Shown here: in pieces, positions 3,378 through 57,501 of the stretch | Layout of the letters: each line of letters begins with the position of its first letter | How positions within the stretch are numbered: position 1 is the stretch's first letter | NCBI GenBank assembly: GCA_032622095.1 | Contig: CP136061.1 | Location: 215,790,373 to 215,854,372 of the forward strand | Direction: 5' to 3' | DNA length: 64,000 bases | Source: Siphonodentalium dalli | Taxonomy: Eukaryota > Mollusca > Scaphopoda > Gadilida > Siphonodentaliidae | The notes under the pieces: generated by a model | What the model was told of the DNA's origin: nothing | Databases searched by the model: none | The model's input: only the letters and a program-made list of their open reading frames with translations | Made by a program: the position numbers and the translations under genes

Positions 3378-3778
3378 TTAACCCTTTACCCAACAAACCG
3401 GGCCAAAACCGGACAAATAAAGCTTCAACAGCCTAAAATATCCTGGGTCTGTCTCAATAAAACCATACAAATATGGATATCATTGGAACCGGCTCCTTGA
3501 CCACATTGTGATAGTTACAGTTAGCCCTGTGCCAATGCATTCTCTTATATATGCGAGTCGACCATAGGTCGCCTCGCATATATAAGAGAATGCATTGGCC
3601 TAAAAAAAATCTTTTTTTAACACTTTTTACCATTTTTTCTTACATTCTTTAACAATTTTATCATTTTTAATGTGTTAAGCCCAATGCATTCTCTTATATA
3701 TGCGAGGCGACCTATGGTCGAATCGCATATATAAGAGAATGCATTGGCACAGGGCCGTTCTGTTGGGTAAAGGGTTAA
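3378..3778 (+). mobile_element. piggyBac-like MITE, 'TTTACCCAACA' family, copy 1
   Basis: A 401-bp element flanked by TTAA on both sides, with termini CCCTTTACCCAACA and TGTTGGGTAAAGGG. From the left it has a unique arm (paired 'ggccaaaacc', 'aaataaagcttcaacagcc', 'ggatatcattggaaccgg'), a 67-nt hairpin, an AT-rich core with 'ttcttacattctttaac', a second 67-nt hairpin, and the right terminus. TTAA targets and CCC/GGG ends are hallmarks of the piggyBac superfamily. Other copies are at 31163, 38722 (truncated), 41795, 44426 and 57117. Confidence 0.8.
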
Positions 3779-25020: not shown

Positions 25021-25328
25021 TTAACCCTTTGGCGAGTATATGTCGCCGTACTGTTTGCGAGTGGAATGACATATATGTCATTTCAGGAAGTGTCATTTTT
25101 ATGTAGACATAACTTCAATTAATCATCCGAATTATAAATGAATTGTATAGAAGATATTTTGATTAAATGTCCCAATGTGTAAGTGCAATAGATAATAATA
25201 GCACATGTAAACAGAAAATACACATCAATTAAAACAAATTATGGACCATTTTGACCTGAATTTGTTAATAATTATTGAAACACATGACATCATGTATATG
25301 ACGTTATACATACGCTCCAAAGGGTTAA
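25021..25328. mobile_element. TTAA element with CCCTTTGGCGAG ends
   Basis: TTAA then CCCTTTGGCGAGTATATG at the left; CATACGCTCCAAAGGG then TTAA at the right, an imperfect inverted pair. 308 bp, without the 67-nt hairpin. A second 'tgtcgccgta / gagtggaatgacatatatgtc' patch lies near the left end. Its right TTAA is also the left TTAA of the next element. Confidence 0.6.
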
Positions 25329-25770
25329 CCCTTTCAGTGCCAGGGGCGGATCTCATCGGTCCTAATTTACGGTCTGTAAAATTGGCCCTAAAAAAAAACA
25401 AAAAACTTTTTTTTTTTTTTTTTTAGATTTTTTTGGGCTGAATTTTTTTTGGGTATGCTTAAGCATGCTATAGCGAATTTAAAAAACAAACTGGATAAAA
25501 CGTTAGGGGCATGTTATAACTCAAAACTATCACCAAGTATTCATAGTAATAATTTTGATGCCCATGAAAAACGTAAGATTCCCTGGCACTAAACCTACAA
25601 AATAAGTCTTTTAAAGAATATAAGAAAAAATTATTAAAATTGTAAAAAATTGTAAAAAATAATAACAAATGATGAAAAATTGTTAGGTGATCGACTCGCA
25701 TATATAAGAGAATGCATTGGCACAGGGTATATGGGTTGATACAAAAATCAGACCTGGCACTGAAAGGGTT
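25325..25770. mobile_element. TTAA-type MITE, 'GAGTGCCAGG' family, first of a pair
   Basis: TTAACCCTTTCAGTGCCAGG at the left and CCTGGCACTGAAAGGG at the right. It carries the 'gatctcatcgg', 'gtatgcttaagcatgctata' and 'acctacaaaataagtc' blocks and only half of one hairpin cassette (from 'tcgactcgcatatataag'). Its right end abuts the next copy with no TTAA between. Confidence 0.7.
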
Positions 25771-25994
25771 TTTGTATCAACCCATATACCCTGTGCCAAT
25801 GCATTCTCTTATATATGCGAGTCGACCATAGGTCGCCTCGCATATATAAGAGAATGCATTGGCCTATTTTTTTTTGTTTTTTTACAATTTTTTACAATTT
25901 TTTACAATTTTAATATATTTTATTATATTCTTTAACAGACTTATTGTGTAGGTTTAGGGCCGATAATATCGGCCCCTGGCACTCAAAGGGTTAA
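25770..25994. mobile_element. TTAA-type MITE, 'GAGTGCCAGG' family, second of a pair
   Basis: Starts 'tttttgtatcaacccatata' (its own terminus is absent), contains one complete 67-nt hairpin (25796-25862), then 'gacttattgtgtaggtttag', the 'ggccgataatatcggcc' motif and CCTGGCACTCAAAGGG plus TTAA. Nearly identical to 52035-52275. Confidence 0.7.
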
Positions 25995-29386: not shown

Positions 29387-30430
29387 CATGTACAGAAACC
29401 TGGCCAATTTTGACACATAATAATTCTGCCTTGGAGGATATCGACTGGGTTATCACTCATAAAATTACTATCGGAAGATTGTGCTTCTTTGGTAATCAAC
29501 TAATAAACTTCCTATCTAAATTCCTGCAGCTGCAGCCCAGCCTTGTTTAGTTCATTCCCAGACTGCACTTAATTGAAATTTCAGGAGAAATCAATTTAAA
29601 TTTACCTGGAGCGGTCCCCGACAAAAAGATATCAATTTCAAATATTAATGGTTCATAGGGCCCTCGAGTCCATTCACGTCAGGCACTCCTCTCGCATGAA
29701 AGGTTACATGGTCCCTTGTGTTTGGGGGAGGGATTACTGAGGGCTGAGTGCATGACCCCCAAACTACAAGATGGAGGTCTTCTCCTTAATGTGGTAGTAG
29801 CTGGTAAGATCACTACCATTAGACTAAAGAATAAAATACTCGCGGTTCGGGTTTCCCTACCGACCCTATTTTAATACCCCCAACCCTAAAAAAAATTCAT
29901 ATCTTTCCAGAAAATGTTCTGAAATTTCGAAAAAAAAATTCATAAATATATAACAAATATTTCTTAGTCAAAGCATTGTGTTTAATACAGTTTATACAAA
30001 GGGAATCAAAACTAATCTTAACAAAAATCTTGAACGAGACATGAAAAGCCATAAGAAAATTGCGTAATAAAAGATTTATTTAAAAAATATTGTTTTAAGC
30101 CTACGTTCTACCAACCCAAATTATTTATGGCCTGTATAAACCCAAACCATACATTTAATTTTCTTTGGACTTTTAAGTGTTCCTAATTTTTTTTCCGCGT
30201 TTTTACTTGCTAAATTGGGCACTGGAGCCGAGCGCATTGAGGGGGGCTTTTGCCTCTTGCCATCTGCCAGGTTTCGTCTTCCATTAATTTTTGCAGAGTT
30301 ATGGCCCTCATGAGTGAACATGATTCATGTATCTCTGTTAAAAGCTCACTTTGAATTATCTTTAACATGCTAATAAGACAGCATGGAGTACATATCTACA
30401 CATGCAACATACCCATTCATTTCTTTTTGT
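29387..30430. other. Intron sequence, nothing recognised
   Basis: No exon-like stretch or shared repeat supported. 'ttttgcagagttatggccct' near 30289 is a module fragment of the foldback repeats. Confidence 0.4.
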
Positions 30431-31162: not shown

Positions 31163-31562
31163 TTATCCCTTTACCCAACAGAAGGGCCCTGTGCCAATGC
31201 ATTCTCTTATATATGCGAGTCGACCATAGGTCGCCTCGCATATATAAGAGAATGCATTGGCTTAACACATTAAAAATTATAAAATTGTTAAAGAATGTAA
31301 GAAAAAATGGTAAAAAGTGTTAAAAAAAGATTTTTTTTAGGCCAATGCATTCTCTTATATATGCGAGGCGACCTATGGTCGACTCGCATATATAAGAGAA
31401 TGCATTGGCACAGGGCATAACTGTAACTATCACAATGTGGTCAAGGAGCCGGTTCCAATGATATCCATATTTGTATGGTTCTATTGAGACAGACCGAAGA
31501 TATTTTAGGCTGTTGAAGCTTTATTTGGCCGGTTGTGGCCGGTTTGTTGGTTAAAGGGTTAA
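31163..31562 (-). mobile_element. piggyBac-like MITE, 'TTTACCCAACA' family, copy 2
   Basis: TTAT (altered TTAA) plus CCCTTTACCCAACA at the left and ...GGTTAAAGGG plus TTAA at the right. Two hairpin cassettes (31194-31260 and 31342-31408) and the unique arm with 'ccggttccaatgatatccat' are present; orientation is opposite to copy 1. Confidence 0.8.
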
Positions 31563-32057: not shown

Positions 32058-32313
32058 TTAACCCTTTCATGACGGGAGCTGCACTGGTGCAACATTAAAG
32101 ATCCTGTGCCAGTGCATTCTCTTTATATATATACGAGTCTCCCATAAGGAGAGAATGTACTGGCTTAATTTACAAGGTCAAGATAAATATTGTTAGGCCA
32201 ATGCATTCTCGTATATATGTGAGGCTTCCTATGGGAGACTCGCATATATAAGAGAATTCATTGGCACAGGCTTTTCGCAAAATTTCAGGAAGCTCCAGTC
32301 GTGGAAGGGTTAA
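32058..32313. mobile_element. TTAA-type MITE, 'CATGACNGGAGCT' family, full copy
   Basis: TTAACCCTTTCATGACGGGAGCT to AGCTCCAGTCGTGGAAGGGTTAA in outline, 256 bp. It has a shortened left cassette, the 'aaggtcaagataaatattgt' core, and a complete right cassette in the 'cttcctatgggagac' variant, then 'aggcttttcgcaaaatttca'. Confidence 0.75.
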
Positions 32314-33545: not shown

Positions 33546-33596
33546 GTTAACTCTTTCATAATGACATTGTTGGTTATATCACACCCCTCCACCCTG
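33546..33596. mobile_element. Left end of a TTAACTCTTTCATAATG element
   Basis: Matches 32818-32875 (ttaactctttcataatgaca, ...'caccctgcttctccttt'). The minisatellite starts exactly where this sequence reaches 'cttctccttta', so the array appears to have grown from this element. Confidence 0.5.
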
Positions 33597-34464
33597 CTTC
33601 TCCTTTATAAGTAGCGTTCACCATCCCTATCACTTCTCCTTTATAAGTAGCGTTCACCATCCCTATCACTTCTCCTTTATAAGTAGCGTTCACCATCCCT
33701 ATCACTTCTCCTTTATAAGTAGCGTTCACCATCCCTATCACTTCTCCTTTATAAGTAGCGTTCACCATCCCTATCACTTCTCCTTTATAAGTAGCGTTCA
33801 CCATCCCTATCACTTCTCCTTTATAAGTAGCGTTCACCATCCCTATCACTTCTCCTTTATAAGTAGCGTTCACCATCCCTATCACTTCTCCTTTATAAGT
33901 AGCGTTCACCATCCCTATCACTTCTCCTTTATAAGTAGCGTTCACCATCCCTATCACTTCTCCTTTATAAGTAGCGTTCACCATCCCTATCACTTCTCCT
34001 TTATAAGTAGCGTTCACCATCCCTATCACTTCTCCTTTATAAGTAGCGTTCACCATCCCTATCACTTCTCCTTTATAAGTAGCGTTCACCATCCCTATCA
34101 CTTCTCCTTTATAAGTAGCGTTCACCATCCCTATCACTTCTCCTTTATAAGTAGCGTTCACCATCCCTATCACTTCTCCTTTATAAGTAGCGTTCACCAT
34201 CCCTATCACTTCTCCTTTATAAGTAGCGTTCACCATCCCTATCACTTCTCCTTTATAAGTAGCGTTCACCATCCCTATCACTTCTCCTTTATAAGTAGCG
34301 TTCACCATCCCTATCACTTCTCCTTTATAAGTAGCGTTCACCATCCCTATCACTTCTCCTTTATAAGTAGCGTTCACCATCCCTATCACTTCTCCTTTAT
34401 AAGTAGCGTTCACCATCCCTATCACTTCTCCTTTATAAGTAGCGTTCACCATCCCTATCACTTC
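33597..34464. repeat. Perfect 36-bp minisatellite, 24 units
   Basis: The unit 'cttctcctttataagtagcg' + 'ttcaccatccctatca' repeats 24 times without any difference that I can see (868 bp). Because 36 is divisible by 3, one minus-strand frame stays open and gives a 342-codon ORF with a 12-residue period (KGEVIGMVNATY). This is a by-product of the array and of adjacent MITE sequence. Confidence 0.95.
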
Positions 34465-34488
34465 ATTGCACAGGGTATGAATGTAGCC

Positions 34489-35677
34489 AAGCCTGCAAAT
34501 AGTGTGCCTGTCATTTGCAGACCGGGGTCCCCAGAGGGTGAATTTAGTGACTATCCCACACAGTGGGCTAGCATCACCAAATTCGCCCTCTGGGGACCTC
34601 ATTATGCTTTAATAGGTCTCATCTTCTGGGAAGTATCTATAGTCTCAAATTAACATTGTTTTATTTACTTTTTCCCTTCTCTTCAGTTTCTATATCCCCT
34701 TATTTGCAGATGATAAAATGCATAATTGAGGTGACTTATGGGTGAACTTCATCAATAGGGCCCTGCGAATCGATTCGTCTGATTCGATTCGATTCGAAAT
34801 CCAGGCTACCATAATTCGCATTTCGTCATATGTTTGGTGACATGTTCATACCAGAAAAGAAAATTCAATATAATAACATAGTAACCAACTTAAACGTACA
34901 CATGTACCATTATGTCCGATGGCAGGACATGTAATGTTATCGCCAACTAATCTATAACTAATTGACCCAATCTGTAACAATGACATAAGTTAACAACAAA
35001 ATTGCCATACAAGGCTGTGTGCTTGTGTCATTCCAGGAATGATGGGAATTCCATAACACACATGTATGCCAGATTCTAGATCTTTGTTTGATTTTGTTAA
35101 TGTGAGTGAATCTAAGTCCTGAGTATTTTTGTAAACATATTCCGGTAAGTGTGTCAGTTCAAGTGACAGACAACACAGTCATCGCAAGTGTTGCGAAAAA
35201 ATACTGCGCTATTCAATGAAATGAAACAGGAATCACCGGTATGCTTGTCCATATTGGTTTTCTCATGCATATATGCTCTTATCTGTACTCAACGATTGCT
35301 TAGAGGTGTGTAGGTAAGCACATAATCTGTGCATATTGCACTACATTGATGATAACTAGGATGTTTTCGCCAGGCAATTTTAGGTGTTTCTTCGAAGTTA
35401 TATGTATTTGAACTCGATTGGCTCAGTAACAATGATTTGATTCGAGATTCAATTTGATTTTGAATCGTTTGCTTGATTATATTCAAGATTCAATTCGAAA
35501 TGAAAACACTATTCGCAGGGCCCTAATCACCAACTTCAACTGGGGAACTTCAATCTGATACTAAGGTCTCCCATAGCAGTTAAGGCCTAAGCAGAATGAG
35601 GTCCCCAGAGGGTGAATTAGGTGATGCTAGCCCGCTAAACTCATTCTGCAAATGACAAACACTACTTGCAGGCTTGA
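34489..35677. mobile_element. hAT-like MITE split by a 770-bp insertion
   Basis: CAAGCCTGCAAATAG at the left and CTACTTGCAGGCTTG at the right, flanked by aatgtagc and aatgtagt, an 8-bp duplication with one change. The left palindrome is complete; the right one has lost most of one arm. The 34756-35525 insertion lies in its middle ('ggtgaacttcatcaa' / 'atcaccaacttcaactgggg'). Confidence 0.75.
34756..35525. mobile_element. 770-bp element with tagggccctgcgaat ends
   Basis: Ends TAGGGCCCTGCGAAT and ATTCGCAGGGCCCTA are a perfect inverted pair. Subterminal regions are full of 'gattcgattcgattcg'-like repeats. 'atca' appears on both sides next to the ends and may be the target duplication. A partial relative is at 60103-60590. 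No coding capacity; superfamily not assigned. Confidence 0.65.
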
Positions 35678-38721: not shown

Positions 38722-39056
38722 TAGGTCGCCTCGCATATATAAGAGAATGCATTGGCTTAACACATTAAAATTATAAAATTGTTAAAGAATGTAAGAAAAA
38801 ATGTTAAAAAGTGTTAAAAAAAGATTTTTTTTAGGCCAATGCATTCTCTTATATATGCGAGGCGACCTATGGTCGACTCGCATATATAAGAGAATGCATT
38901 GGCACAGGGCATAACTGTAACCATCACAATGTGGTCAATGAGCCGGTTCCAATGATATCCATATGTGTATGGTTTTATTGAGACAGACCGAAGATATTTT
39001 AGGCTGTTGAAGCTTTATTTGGCCGGTTTTGGCCGGTTTGTTGGGTAAAGGGTTAA
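38722..39056 (-). mobile_element. piggyBac-like MITE, 'TTTACCCAACA' family, truncated
   Basis: Begins inside the first hairpin (taggtcgcctcgcatatata) and then matches copies at 31163 and 41795 to the right end TTGGGTAAAGGG and TTAA. The left terminus and half a hairpin are missing. Confidence 0.75.
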
Positions 39057-41794: not shown

Positions 41795-42194
41795 TTAACC
41801 CTTTACCCAACAGAAGGGCCCTGTGCCAATGCATTCTCTTATATATGCGAGTCGACCATAGGTCGCCTCGCATATATAAGAGAATGCATTGGCTTAACAC
41901 ATTAAAATTTATAAAATTGTTAAAGAATGTAAGAAAAAATGGTAAAAAGTGTTAAAAAAAGATTTTTTTTAGGCCAATGCATTCTCTTATATATGCGAGG
42001 CGACCTATGGTCGACTCGCATATATAAGAGAATGCATTGGCACAGGGTATAACTATAACTATCACAATGTGGTCAAGGAGCCGGTTCCAATGATATCCAT
42101 ATTTGTATGGTTTTATTGAGACAGACCGAAGATATTTTAGGCTGTTGAAGCTTTATTTGGCCGGTTTTGGCCGGTTTGTTGGGTAAAGGGTTAA
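41795..42194 (-). mobile_element. piggyBac-like MITE, 'TTTACCCAACA' family, inside the DIRS relic
   Basis: 400 bp with TTAA at both ends, CCCTTTACCCAACA and TGTTGGGTAAAGGG. The two hairpins are exactly 67 nt (41826-41892, 41974-42040). This is the best reference copy: all blocks are present and intact. Confidence 0.85.
41826..41892. repeat. 67-nt hairpin cassette, reference copy
   Basis: CCAATGCATTCTCTTATATA + TGCGAG, a 15-nt centre (tcgaccataggtcgc), then the exact inverse arm CTCGCATATATAAGAG + AATGCATTGG. The same cassette, with either this centre or a 'tcccatagggagc' centre, occurs in all three main TTAA families in this window. The arms contain CCAAT and TATATAAG sequences that resemble core promoter motifs. 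Confidence 0.9.
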
Positions 42195-43498: not shown

Positions 43499-45405
43499 TC
43501 AAACTCCGACTGTACATTCGGAAATGGATGCTAGATTATTATTTACATTTCTTACCATTAAAGAATCATCTGCGTTGTGATCTTCCTCTGGTAGTACCAA
43601 TGTCGTATCGTTCACCTCGTCTGGATCCGTAAGAGAACCCTCCTTCTCCAGCAGTTTTGGCAGCTGATTTCGATGTGGATGGTTGGTCATGATCATTTCT
43701 AAACAATTTGGCACGTTCCGGCCAGGTTAACAGTTCTTGTAACCTTCCTGGGTGGTCATTGAGAGGATTTGTCTATCAAATTTCTCTTAGAAGTTTTGAT
43801 TGACGACAAAGGTGCATTCACAACTTTTCTGTTATCTTTATTCCCTCTAAGAAAACTTTCAAGCTGATCCCTGAATAACCCGTCTGACATTAACGGTATA
43901 AACGGCTAAGTCCTTGGGATCTGCTGTCTGATACAAATTTGAATCGCTGATTTGCTGTTTTTGTCGACAAATCAAATGATGCATGGCCCCTTCACGGCCT
44001 AATTGATCCAACACTTTAGTCGACATTGAAAAAATGTCCCTAATTTGGTTTTGTTGTTAGTCGATTCAAGTCAACCACCTTAGCTTGAACGACTTCCACG
44101 AGGCATGCAAAGGTTTGTTGTAAAAATACATTCACAGCCATTCCCATCTATGCAGCGACCTGACCTCTAAGCTGTCTTTTTCAATGAATTTGAATGTATT
44201 GGAATCAACATTTTTCCAGATCTGATTTATACAGACTTTCCATGTGTCCTTATCAAACACTATTGTACAAATTCATCCAAAGACGGTACTAGTATTTTCA
44301 AGAGATCATTTGAAGAATCTGCAAAAAGTAACTCCTCAAATAACTGTTCAGGAAGAGCAGTTAAAAACGTTGGCTCTTTACTATGCCAAGAAGCTGCGAG
44401 CACTTATTTTCTTTCTGTGCTTCATTTAACCCTTTACCCAACAAACCGGCCAAAACCGGCCAAATAAAGCTTCCAACAGCCTAAAATATCTTCGGTCTGT
44501 CTCAATAGAACCATACAAATATGGATATCATTGGAACCGGCTCCTTGACCACATTGTGATAGTTACAGTTAGCCCTGTGCCAATGCATTCTCTTATATAT
44601 GCGAGTCGACCATAGGTCGCCTCGCATATATAAGAGAATGCATTGGCCTAAAAAAATATTTTTTTAACATTTTTTACCATTTTTTCTTACATTCTTTAAC
44701 AATTTTATAATTTTTAATGTGTTAAGCCAATGCATTCTCTTATATATGCGAGGCGACCTATGGTCGACTCGCATATATAAGAGAATGCATTGGCACAGGG
44801 CCATTCTGTTGGGTAAAGGGTTAAGGTCAGTCCACTGACAGGCTGTTTAAGTGTTAAAGGTAAGACATCTTTACCAAAAGGTCCACTATAAGCCCTTGGT
44901 TGTGGTATACTGAGTGCATGTTAAACTCTGTCTGGCATAAGAGTAGTGTCATCAAAATTTGTCCATGACCTGACACCGACAACACATCGTTGGCTGAACT
45001 ACTGACACCATTATCACACTGATAATGTGATATACTGTGCGTCTTTTGCACGTTCATATCGGTAGTCTTGTTTTTTGGACAGCCTCTTCGGCTCCTGAGC
45101 ATTAAACTTGTGTTGTCTTATGGGCGATCCTGAAGATCCCCTAGACTTAAGTGTTTATCGGTCGATCTACAAGATCACCTGGTCTGAATACTTTGACCTA
45201 GACCGACAATAATGTCTGACTTTCCGCCGGTCTCCTTGCGAAGTTCCGACATTTCCCGTTCTTGCGAGGCATATCTATTCCTCCAGAAAATCGTAGTGCA
45301 ACCATCGTTTGGTCTTATGCTTACACAGATTATCCACTGGAGATTTACAGTAGACTCTGTCAGAGAAAACAGACGCCTCAGATTCTGACATTGTAAGAGC
45401 AGCAC
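43499..45405 (-). pseudogene. Probable gag-like region of the DIRS relic
   Basis: The minus strand begins MSESEASVFSDRVYCKSP at about 45388 and continues in another frame with 'YASQEREMSELRKETGG'. After the MITE at 44426-44824 come further broken open stretches, including a 71-codon acidic piece at 43499-43714. Position before the RT and acidic/serine-rich start are consistent with gag. No CCHC knuckle seen; function by position only. Confidence 0.4.
44426..44824 (+). mobile_element. piggyBac-like MITE, 'TTTACCCAACA' family, inside the DIRS relic
   Basis: 399 bp, TTAA both ends, same orientation as 3378-3778. Two complete hairpins (44579-44645 and 44727-44793). It separates the two gag-like parts of the DIRS relic. 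Confidence 0.82.
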
Positions 45406-45682: not shown

Positions 45683-46120
45683 TTAACCCTTTGAGTGCCA
45701 GGTCGAATTTTTGTATCAACCCATATACCCTGTGCCAATGCATTCTCTTATATATGCGAGTCGACCATAGGTGGCCTCGCATATATAAGATAATGCATTG
45801 GCCTAACAATTTTTCATCATTTGTTATTATTTTTTACAATTTTTTACAATTTTAATAATTTTTTCTTATATTCTTTAACAGACTTAATTTGTAGGTAGTT
45901 TTTCATGGGCATTAAAATTATTACTATGAATACTTGGTGATAGTTTTGAGTTATAACATGCCCCTAAGGTTTTATCCAGTTTGTTTTTAAATTCGCTATA
46001 GCATGCTTATTAAAGCATACCCAAAAAAAATTCGACCAAAAGTTTTAATTTTTTTAGGGCTGATTTTACAGACCGTAAATTAGGGCCGATGAGATCGGCC
46101 CCTGGCACTGAAAGGGTTAA
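45683..46120 (+). mobile_element. TTAA-type MITE, 'GAGTGCCAGG' family, full copy
   Basis: TTAACCCTTTGAGTGCCAGG at the left and CCTGGCACTGAAAGGGTTAA at the right, 438 bp. Blocks in order: 'tttttgtatcaacccatata', a full hairpin (45737-45803), the 'ttcttatattctttaacaga' core, 'gttttgagttataacatgcc', 'tagcatgcttattaaagcat', and 'gggccgatgagatcggcccc'. Confidence 0.8.
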
Positions 46121-49964: not shown

Positions 49965-50192
49965 TTAACCCTTTCATGACGGGAGCTGCAGCATTAAAGA
50001 TCATGTGCCAGTGCATTCTCTTATAAATATATAAGAGAATGCACTGGCTTACTAGATCAAGGTAAATATTGTTAGGCCAATGTATTCTCTTATATAGGCG
50101 AGGCTCCCTTTGGGAGACTCGCATATATAAGAGAATGCATTGGCACAGGGTTTTCGCAATAATTCAGGAAGCACCAGTCATGAGAGGGTTAA
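49965..50192. mobile_element. TTAA-type MITE, 'CATGACNGGAGCT' family, full copy
   Basis: 228 bp: TTAACCCTTTCATGACGGGAG to CACCAGTCATGAGAGGGTTAA. The left cassette has lost its centre so its two arms meet (cttataaatatataagag); the right cassette is complete with the 'tccctttgggag' centre. Confidence 0.75.
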
Positions 50193-52034: not shown

Positions 52035-52275
52035 TTAACCCTTTGAGTGCCAGGTCCGATTTTTGTATCAACCCATATACCCTGTGCCAATGCATTCTCT
52101 TATATATGCGAGTCGACCATAGGTCGCCTCGCATATATAAGAGAATGCATTGGCCTAAGAATTTTTTATTTTTTATTTTTTTTTACAATTTTAATATATT
52201 TTATTATATTCTTTAACAGACTTATTGTGTAGGTTTAGGGCCGATAATATCGGCCCCTGGCACTCAAAGGGTTAA
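52035..52275 (+). mobile_element. TTAA-type MITE, 'GAGTGCCAGG' family, short form
   Basis: 241 bp: TTAACCCTTTGAGTGCCAGG to CCTGGCACTCAAAGGGTTAA. A single complete hairpin (52087-52153) and the 'ggccgataatatcggcc' motif; the central 'gcatgctta' part of the long form is absent. Confidence 0.8.
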
Positions 52276-57116: not shown

Positions 57117-57501
57117 TTAACCCTTTACCCAACAGAAGGGCCCTGTGCCAATGCATTCTCTTATATATGCGAGTCGACCATAGGTCGCCTCGCATATATA
57201 AGAGAATGCATTGGCTTAACACATTAAAAATTATAAAATTGTTAAAGAATGTAAGAAAAAATGGTAAAAAGTGTTTTAGGCCAATGCATTCTCTTATATA
57301 TGCGAGGCGACCTATGGTCGACTCGCATATATAAGAGAATGCATTGGCACAGGGCATAACTGTAACTATCACAATGTGGTCAAGGAGCCGGTTCCAATGA
57401 TATCCATATTTGTATGGTTCTATTGAGACAGACCGAAGATATTTTAGGCTGTTGAAGCTTTATTTGGCTGGTTTTGGCCGGTTTGTTGCGTAAAGGGTTA
57501 A
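57117..57501 (-). mobile_element. piggyBac-like MITE, 'TTTACCCAACA' family
   Basis: TTAA at both ends, CCCTTTACCCAACA and TGTTGCGTAAAGGG, 385 bp, two full hairpins (57148-57214, 57281-57347) and a shortened core. Confidence 0.82.

Follow-up and report, generated by a model that had tools for sequence, protein, structure and literature searches.

The origin of new MITE families is unclear, and for the closest described case, the CMITEs of the coral Acropora, the available part of the account leaves the origin of a shared core open (PMC2872659). In those elements the internal region is reported to be more conserved across families than the TIRs, about 1,600 copies are present in A. millepora, and the sections available note one element with a discordant tip and core (PMC2872659). 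Two other systems provide points of reference, again from the accessible portions of the papers: in piggyBac a palindrome at bp 17-33 of one end binds the cysteine-rich domain (PMC7351741), and in Galileo, a P-superfamily element of Drosophila, abortive gap repair, template switching and ectopic exchange have been invoked for the variety of copies (PMC4168063). In the open-access literature, repeat databases being outside the scope, no paper was recognised as describing the hairpin cassette treated here, and Rfam returned no matches at gathering scores in the window, by which we mean the whole 64,000 nt stretch of DNA analysed.

The hairpin cassette and its TTAA carriers

A preliminary description of the window had placed a hairpin at 41826-41892, and both its position and its pairing were borne out: an inverted repeat of 33+33 nt, 3 nt apart and 97% identical, lies exactly there, with a predicted DNA fold of -33.2 kcal/mol (z -14.2) for which none of 200 shuffles was as good. 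The claim of more than 20 copies in the window also held, the arm CCAATGCATTCTC being found 51 times with at most one mismatch (41 exact and 10 with one mismatch, against 0.13 expected by shuffles) and a paired-arm search giving 22 hairpins. The outer flanks of these 22 were assigned to the left (5) and right (6) ends of family A, the left end of family B (4) and the right (4) and left (1) ends of family C, with two left unassigned. Across the genome (2.23 Gb, 9 contigs), exact arms number 345,415 (172,815 + 172,600) versus 7 + 2 for a reversed-pattern control, and TTAACCCTTT, common to A, B and C, stands 10-40 nt before TGCCAATGCATTCTC at 30,411 + 30,225 places (control, 0); such exact search patterns favour young copies. 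The left border of the cassette is sharp, at CCCTGTG, and is shared between families. The hairpin is a real feature and lies inside several kinds of MITE with otherwise unrelated ends. Cassettes at C1:742214-920830 repeat every 14,558 bp and then about every 11,175 bp, forming long tandem arrays of large units that carry MITEs.

Table 1. Positions of hairpin cassettes and carrier elements in the window
Feature	Position	Strand	Remarks
Hairpin cassette 1	41826..41892	+	outer arm left, GAGTC; inner arm GAGGC from other side
Hairpin cassette 2, inverted copy of cassette 1	41974..42040	-	79-nt inverted repeat, 99%
Family A MITE, 400 bp, TTAA at both ends	41795..42194	+	TIR 26 nt, 88%; empty site found
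A left end: TTAA, TIR, CCCTGTG border	41795..41825	+	
AT-rich middle of family A MITE	41893..41973	+	
A right end: CACAGGG, unique part, CCGGCCAAAACCGG at bp 17-30 inside TTAA, TIR	42041..42194	+	
Family A MITE	3378..3778	-	two hairpins, 3532-3598 and 3681-3747
Family A MITE, left TTAA mutated	31163..31562	+	hairpins 31194-31260, 31342-31408
Family A MITE without left end and outer half of hairpin 1	38733..39056	+	hairpin 2 38836-38902; right TTAA ends 39056
Family A MITE	44426..44824	-	hairpins 44580-44646, 44727-44793
Family A MITE	57117..57501	+	hairpins 57148-57214, 57281-57347
Two family B elements fused left-to-left (~25770), right tips outward	25325..25994	.	half-hairpin 25698-25720, whole hairpin 25796-25862
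Family B MITE	45683..46120	+	hairpin 45735-45801
Family B MITE	52035..52275	+	hairpin 52087-52153
Family C MITE	32058..32313	+	hairpins 32109-32163, 32198-32264; centre TCCC type
Family C MITE	49965..50192	+	hairpins 50008-50047 (shortened), 50077-50143

The anatomy of the families was read from 40 loci (17 A, 17 B and 6 C) out of 100 listed places with an end and a hairpin, all near the start of contig 1, as are the other sampled loci except chimeras and mixed centres. Some of them are segmental duplicates (e.g., L032 and L038), which were retained in the anatomy, majority-sequence, permutation and arm-divergence counts. The tips are CCCTTTACCCAACA in A, CCCTTT[G/C]AGTGCCAGG in B and CCCTTTCATGAC in C, and an opposite tip (CC[C/T]T, inverted and adjoining TTAA) was found at a match of at least 11/14 in 15 of 17 A, 14 of 17 B and 3 of 6 C loci. 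Family A elements are about 400 bp long, with two inverted hairpins flanking an AT-rich middle, family B elements are about 240-485 bp with a single hairpin, and most of the C copies seen have two, so the earlier statement that the cassette usually occurs twice per element applies to A and most C copies and not to B. In the window the termini of A, B and C all enclose the hairpin, as had been described for three named termini, of which CATGACGGGAGC proved to be one of two C ends, the other being CATGACTGGAGCTTCC / CATGACTGGAGC.

When the flanks of the A element at 41795-42194 were joined and searched against the genome, 43 rows were obtained, 29 of them covering the full query, with the window locus itself appearing as two pieces. 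Of these 29, three are of the length expected without an insertion (180-185 nt, 90-96% identity) and 26 measure at least 204 nt; two of the three were aligned and carry a single TTAA, at C7:70812946 (96%) and C1:63630734 (94%). Because these empty sites carry a single TTAA, the element inserted as a discrete unit at a TTAA within an older repeat, and the empty-site evidence covers this element alone. Among the matches listed, a local search showed no empty site spanning a junction for family E (see below) or for ten window elements among the loci sampled. In 7 of 13 ends, including ends at two transposase loci, the best palindrome lies near bp 17-32 inside the TTAA, a count made without a shuffled control; it spans 16-34 in B-right (arm 8), 17-32 in C-left (arm 5) and 17-30 in A-right (arm only 4). 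Given the TTAA duplication (the empty site coming from A), the CCCTTT tips and the subterminal palindrome, A, B and C are piggyBac-type MITEs.

A transposase search gave 128 PF13843 matches, with 116 of 649 candidates scored. No autonomous partner carrying the cassette was seen in 8 loci of about 4 kb, nor in 16 transposase loci, several of which were read short of their ends. At these 16, with that same limit of several not read to the ends, the tips differ from those of A, B and C, and two of them share [C/G]AGTGCC with B. Four loci (L002, L004, L005 and L006) are copies of one piggyBac locus, 98-99% identical over about 4.1 kb, with a TIR pair, TTAACTCATTCAGTGCC, 5.18 kb apart around L002; recent activity of this locus is likely. 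Many PF13843 matches with a 562 aa open frame contain one internal TGA.

The subset B2 (L020-L022, L039 and L042) has internal GTGCCAG motifs, possibly relics of a second B tip, and L020 has TTAACTCTTTCAGTGCCAG; B2 may represent a fusion of adjacent elements. In the fused pair of B elements of Table 1, both left TTAA tips are lost and the fusion is close to two hairpins. A 36-bp tandem repeat (SFISSVHHPYHF when translated) occupies 33565-34653 of the window, with both strands open, and H2B genes occur in several clusters on C5, C8 and C9, often spaced about 3.9-4.2 kb. The best H2B matches show 87% identity to Xenopus H2B and have an N-terminus of lophotrochozoan appearance; a frog origin of the DNA, which the piggyBac tips had suggested, was rejected.

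A TA-flanked carrier and the discordance of cassette and ends

Beyond what had been claimed for the window, the cassette occurs genome-wide and in a family without TTAA, here called E. It came from 20 loci drawn from the list of arms and not from that of ends, where 11 of 27 hairpins had a flank that at first matched no known family, part of which belong to E. The E centre marker has 12,545 exact occurrences in the genome (6,369 + 6,176), and 11 of 20 marker loci (10 without the duplicate L126) are full length, with E ends and a cassette on both sides. These ends, TGTGACCCGCC, are unrelated to those of A, B and C, and TGTGACCCGCCATATCAAATCCAGTCG..CGGGATTTTTTTTACCCTGTG precede the same hairpin. 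Among 40 E ends an A precedes at 35, with T at -2 in 31 and A at -3 in 38, and TA is present on both sides in 8 of the 11 independent loci for which both ends were found, a count that drops the duplicates L126 and L153; it is absent in L059, L129 and L150. A TA duplication is therefore likely for E, the alternative being that the TA belongs to the ends. Truncation points of E copies are spread along the element, with 5 of 12 falling in the 20 nt beyond a hairpin, a zone that adjoins a T-run and was chosen post hoc; clustering of break points at hairpins was considered on this count and set aside as weak and post hoc.

Two loci (L160 and L084) have E-type cores without E ends on either side, their flanks becoming other DNA at the T-run/A-run just outside the hairpins, and may represent independent insertion or the loss of both ends. 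At L041 and L163 (C1:5936155 and C1:5949579) a B-left end and hairpin are followed by an E centre, so that a B/E mosaic was seen twice. Cores without known ends, and the sharp common border, are what would be expected if the core (ACCCTGTG-hairpin ... hairpin-CACAGGGT) were itself a transposon inserted into different MITEs. This is improbable, as no target duplication was evident by eye where the core meets its flanks in any of A, B, C and E, core length and middle vary between families, and the outer ends of E form a symmetrical pair, which one insertion does not give.

The preliminary description had suggested that cassettes and termini be compared for discordance, and the comparison was made here by distances on the 151 of 172 hairpins that are exactly 67 nt long and of known orientation, with loci L069-L124, selected on other features or for their transposases, set aside. 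All 67 positions of the majority hairpin agree among A-left (n=32), A-right (27), B-left (25) and E (41), with or without duplicates. Between-family minus within-family hairpin distance is -0.057 nt (P = 0.92; n=125 hairpins of A-left, A-right, B and E; 2,000 label permutations), and without duplicate contexts P = 0.90 (119 hairpins); as many of these loci had been chosen through exact arm or centre matches, hairpin diversity is reduced in all the families. The outer 20-nt flanks of A-left, A-right, B and E differ by 0.57-0.87, about the level of unrelated DNA. When each family was represented by one sequence (B by two), the outer flanks of E aligned to those of no other family (z at most 1.2), and the left ends of A, B and C have little in common beyond the tip (z 2.2-4.6). 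The inner tracts do align, C-left with A-right (z 7.8; the A middle read from the right, representative copy L015), with B (6.1, 7.1) and with E (6.8), and more weakly A-right with B (3.4-4.1) and B with E (1.9-2.6), whereas A-right is not clearly alignable with E (1.9). The A-left inner tract fails to align with B, C or E (z -1.0 to 0.5).

Because the hairpin is identical and without family signal while the outer flanks fail to align, the cassette appears to have crossed between families, and these comparisons support module exchange among A, B and E. Full agreement between cassettes and termini, which the preliminary description took as the sign that no exchange is needed, does not hold for those three. 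The discordance applies to them, as family C mostly retains its own hairpin version, set apart from A/B/E by paired changes at arm position 4 and in the centre, and contains both centre types. Descent of all families from one ancestral MITE, whose core was kept while its ends diverged with different transposases and without any exchange, has to be weighed against this. It would account for the collinearity of cassette, CCCTGTG border and AT-rich inner tract, for TTAACCCTTT being kept in A, B and C, and for the presence of both centre types in C, which of the families here has diverged most. For A, B and E, however, it is contradicted by the same majority hairpin beside ends that do not align, unless there is very strong constraint on all 67 nt; E differs even in its flanking target, and chimeras exist (see below). 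We regard common descent without exchange as quite unlikely.

Centre versions, chimeric elements and a proposed route of exchange

The two centre versions previously noted were confirmed: genome-wide, centre 25-mers of the GA..TC form number 119,223 and of the TC..GA form 3,289 (122,512 matched), as against 51 mixed (35 + 16), and the T.C mismatch marking outer versus inner arm is retained in both. Covariation was assessed on 19 of 42 C-type hairpins plus the A/B/E form, leaving out nine hairpins whose loci have mixed centres and 14 whose loci had been picked by centre (12 picks and 2 partners); one of the hairpins kept, L094, itself fits the centre pattern. The value obtained, 0.124, compares with 0.079 +/- 0.008 in shuffled sets (reached in 0/500) and exceeds all six slid controls, and pairs changed on both sides number six, a figure reached by 56 of 500 shuffles. 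Copies of A, B and E show 81 single-arm changes and 0 compensated ones; the corresponding counts are 38 and 4 in 10 C hairpins and 17 and 6 in 16 unassigned hairpins, version differences contributing to both of the latter. Pairing is kept between source lineages and not visibly in single recent copies, and the paired source-lineage changes are compatible either with selection acting on source copies or with one arm serving as template for the other.

The claim that the arms are conserved more strictly than the rest was not upheld. In 20 A elements (15 fetched and 5 from the window) the arms of the second hairpin diverge at 18/1014 positions and the unique right part at 57/2508 (Fisher P = 0.44), while the lower figure for the arms of the first hairpin, 6/1040, is mostly a product of choosing loci through exact arm matches. 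The same picking bias affects the lower divergence of arms than of centres among 67-nt hairpins, the centre also being CpG-rich. The right part was not used for picking and places A copies about 2% from their majority; the burst of family A is therefore taken to be fairly recent.

Selection for the hairpin itself, which had been offered as an alternative to exchange, would operate if the hairpin aided transposition, by binding a transposase or host factor, or evaded silencing, so that elements acquiring it would win. It fits the paired changes between source lineages and the raised covariation, and carriers are very numerous; the coral authors, in the text available, proposed the same for the CMITE core (PMC2872659). 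Recent copies, though, lack compensated changes, the arms of the second hairpin diverge about as much as the flanks, the distance from hairpin to tip varies from about 31 nt (A) to 53 (E), and one transposase would not serve both TTAA and TA families, which leaves such selection a doubtful account of the cassette. The same paired changes (GA..TC, TC..GA) would also result without selection if one arm templated repair of the other. Quasi-palindrome correction of this kind is known from other organisms. Here it would have to be incomplete, the T.C mismatch having survived in both centre versions, and its absence from recent copies, with no compensated change, also counts against it; we entertain it tentatively.

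Mixed centres led to chimeric elements. Of the 51 places, 20 were fetched (12/35 and 8/16), and among them are elements flanked by A sequence left and right, along with two clear chimeras, one in which B-left and half a hairpin are joined to an inverted A-right end (L072), and one in which a C outer flank is joined to an A middle (L076). With exact anchors, 20 chimeras with a B outer and A inner side and two with a C outer and A inner side were found genome-wide, and none with reversed controls. Five of the 20 B/A loci have the full B-left end, paired with an A-right tip (L170, L181 and L184) or a B-right tip (L175 and L187); in four a B tract is joined to an A-left remnant (L169, L172 and L185, and by eye L173); and in 11 a B tract of 16-41 nt beside the hairpin gives way to DNA like neither end. 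These tract lengths include the shared CCCTGTG and were subject to a search minimum of 15 nt, some being understated through a one-base length variant in B. An A-right tip with at most 3 substitutions is present in 13 of the 20. Partial B tracts that start at the hairpin and run outward, as in 15 of 20 loci, are expected of interrupted copying from a copy of the other family, and suggest that this took place. The chimeric junctions are taken from the assembly as it stands and may include assembly errors. Together with the absence of family signal in the hairpins and the divergence of their flanks, the junctions favour the module exchange among MITE families that had first been proposed from the window.

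The reading that we consider probable is that a recombinogenic hairpin module, comprising CCCTGTG, the 67-nt hairpin and the AT-rich inner tract, is carried by several non-autonomous DNA transposon families and passed between them. Quasi-palindromes are described as breaking in yeast in the part of that study available (PMC3855049), and the hairpin would break or stall replication here, breakage being the inferred step. The broken end would then invade one of about 10^5 near-identical hairpins elsewhere, copying would proceed outward into the end of the invaded copy, and the product would be joined to the remainder on the left. Most products would lose a transposon end and be dead, and a rare one with a full matched end could give rise to a new family. 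By this route A, B and E would have been founded, with exchange shortly before their bursts and transposases mobilising the elements in trans. Chimeras are rare (22 versus tens of thousands of copies), so exchange as it occurs now may be unlike that which founded the families; the conversion of a cassette already in place and founding by end capture are indistinguishable here. A bolder form, in which the fragile hairpin acts as a universal adapter joining the core to tips of the TTAA and TA superfamilies, families arise by end capture, and the core is a selfish entity that changes its carrier, is conceivable and, in our estimate, on the unlikely side.

Comparison with described systems

The copies are numerous enough to catch possible intermediates, namely chimeras and graded copy tracts beside the hairpin, which makes end capture testable. 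For annotation, classifying repeats by core sequence would lump elements that are moved by different enzymes.

Tc1/mariner-type MITEs are flanked by TA and have long inverted ends. Family E resembles them in both respects, and differs in its tip, TGTGACCC, in having no transposase linked to it and in a TA duplication that is supported indirectly. The TTAA families share with piggyBac ends the TTAA target, CCCT tips and a palindrome near bp 17-33 at one end, while the 67-nt hairpin is much longer than that palindrome and lies at a variable distance (PMC7351741, PMC11707139). For Galileo the same kind of exchange has been invoked, and the portion of the account available has no hairpin module across superfamilies (PMC4168063).

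The closest likeness is to the coral CMITEs, which are also piggyBac-type, with TTAA duplications, CCCTTT-like tips and a core more conserved than the tips (PMC2872659). Their core is 75 nt long and is described from TTAA families only, in an available text that uses neither "hairpin" nor "palindrom" (PMC2872659). A shared core with different TTAA tips is thus already known from CMITEs; what differs here is that the core is a hairpin, present once or twice per element and in the order of 10^5 copies, with a TA-flanked carrier and graded chimeras.
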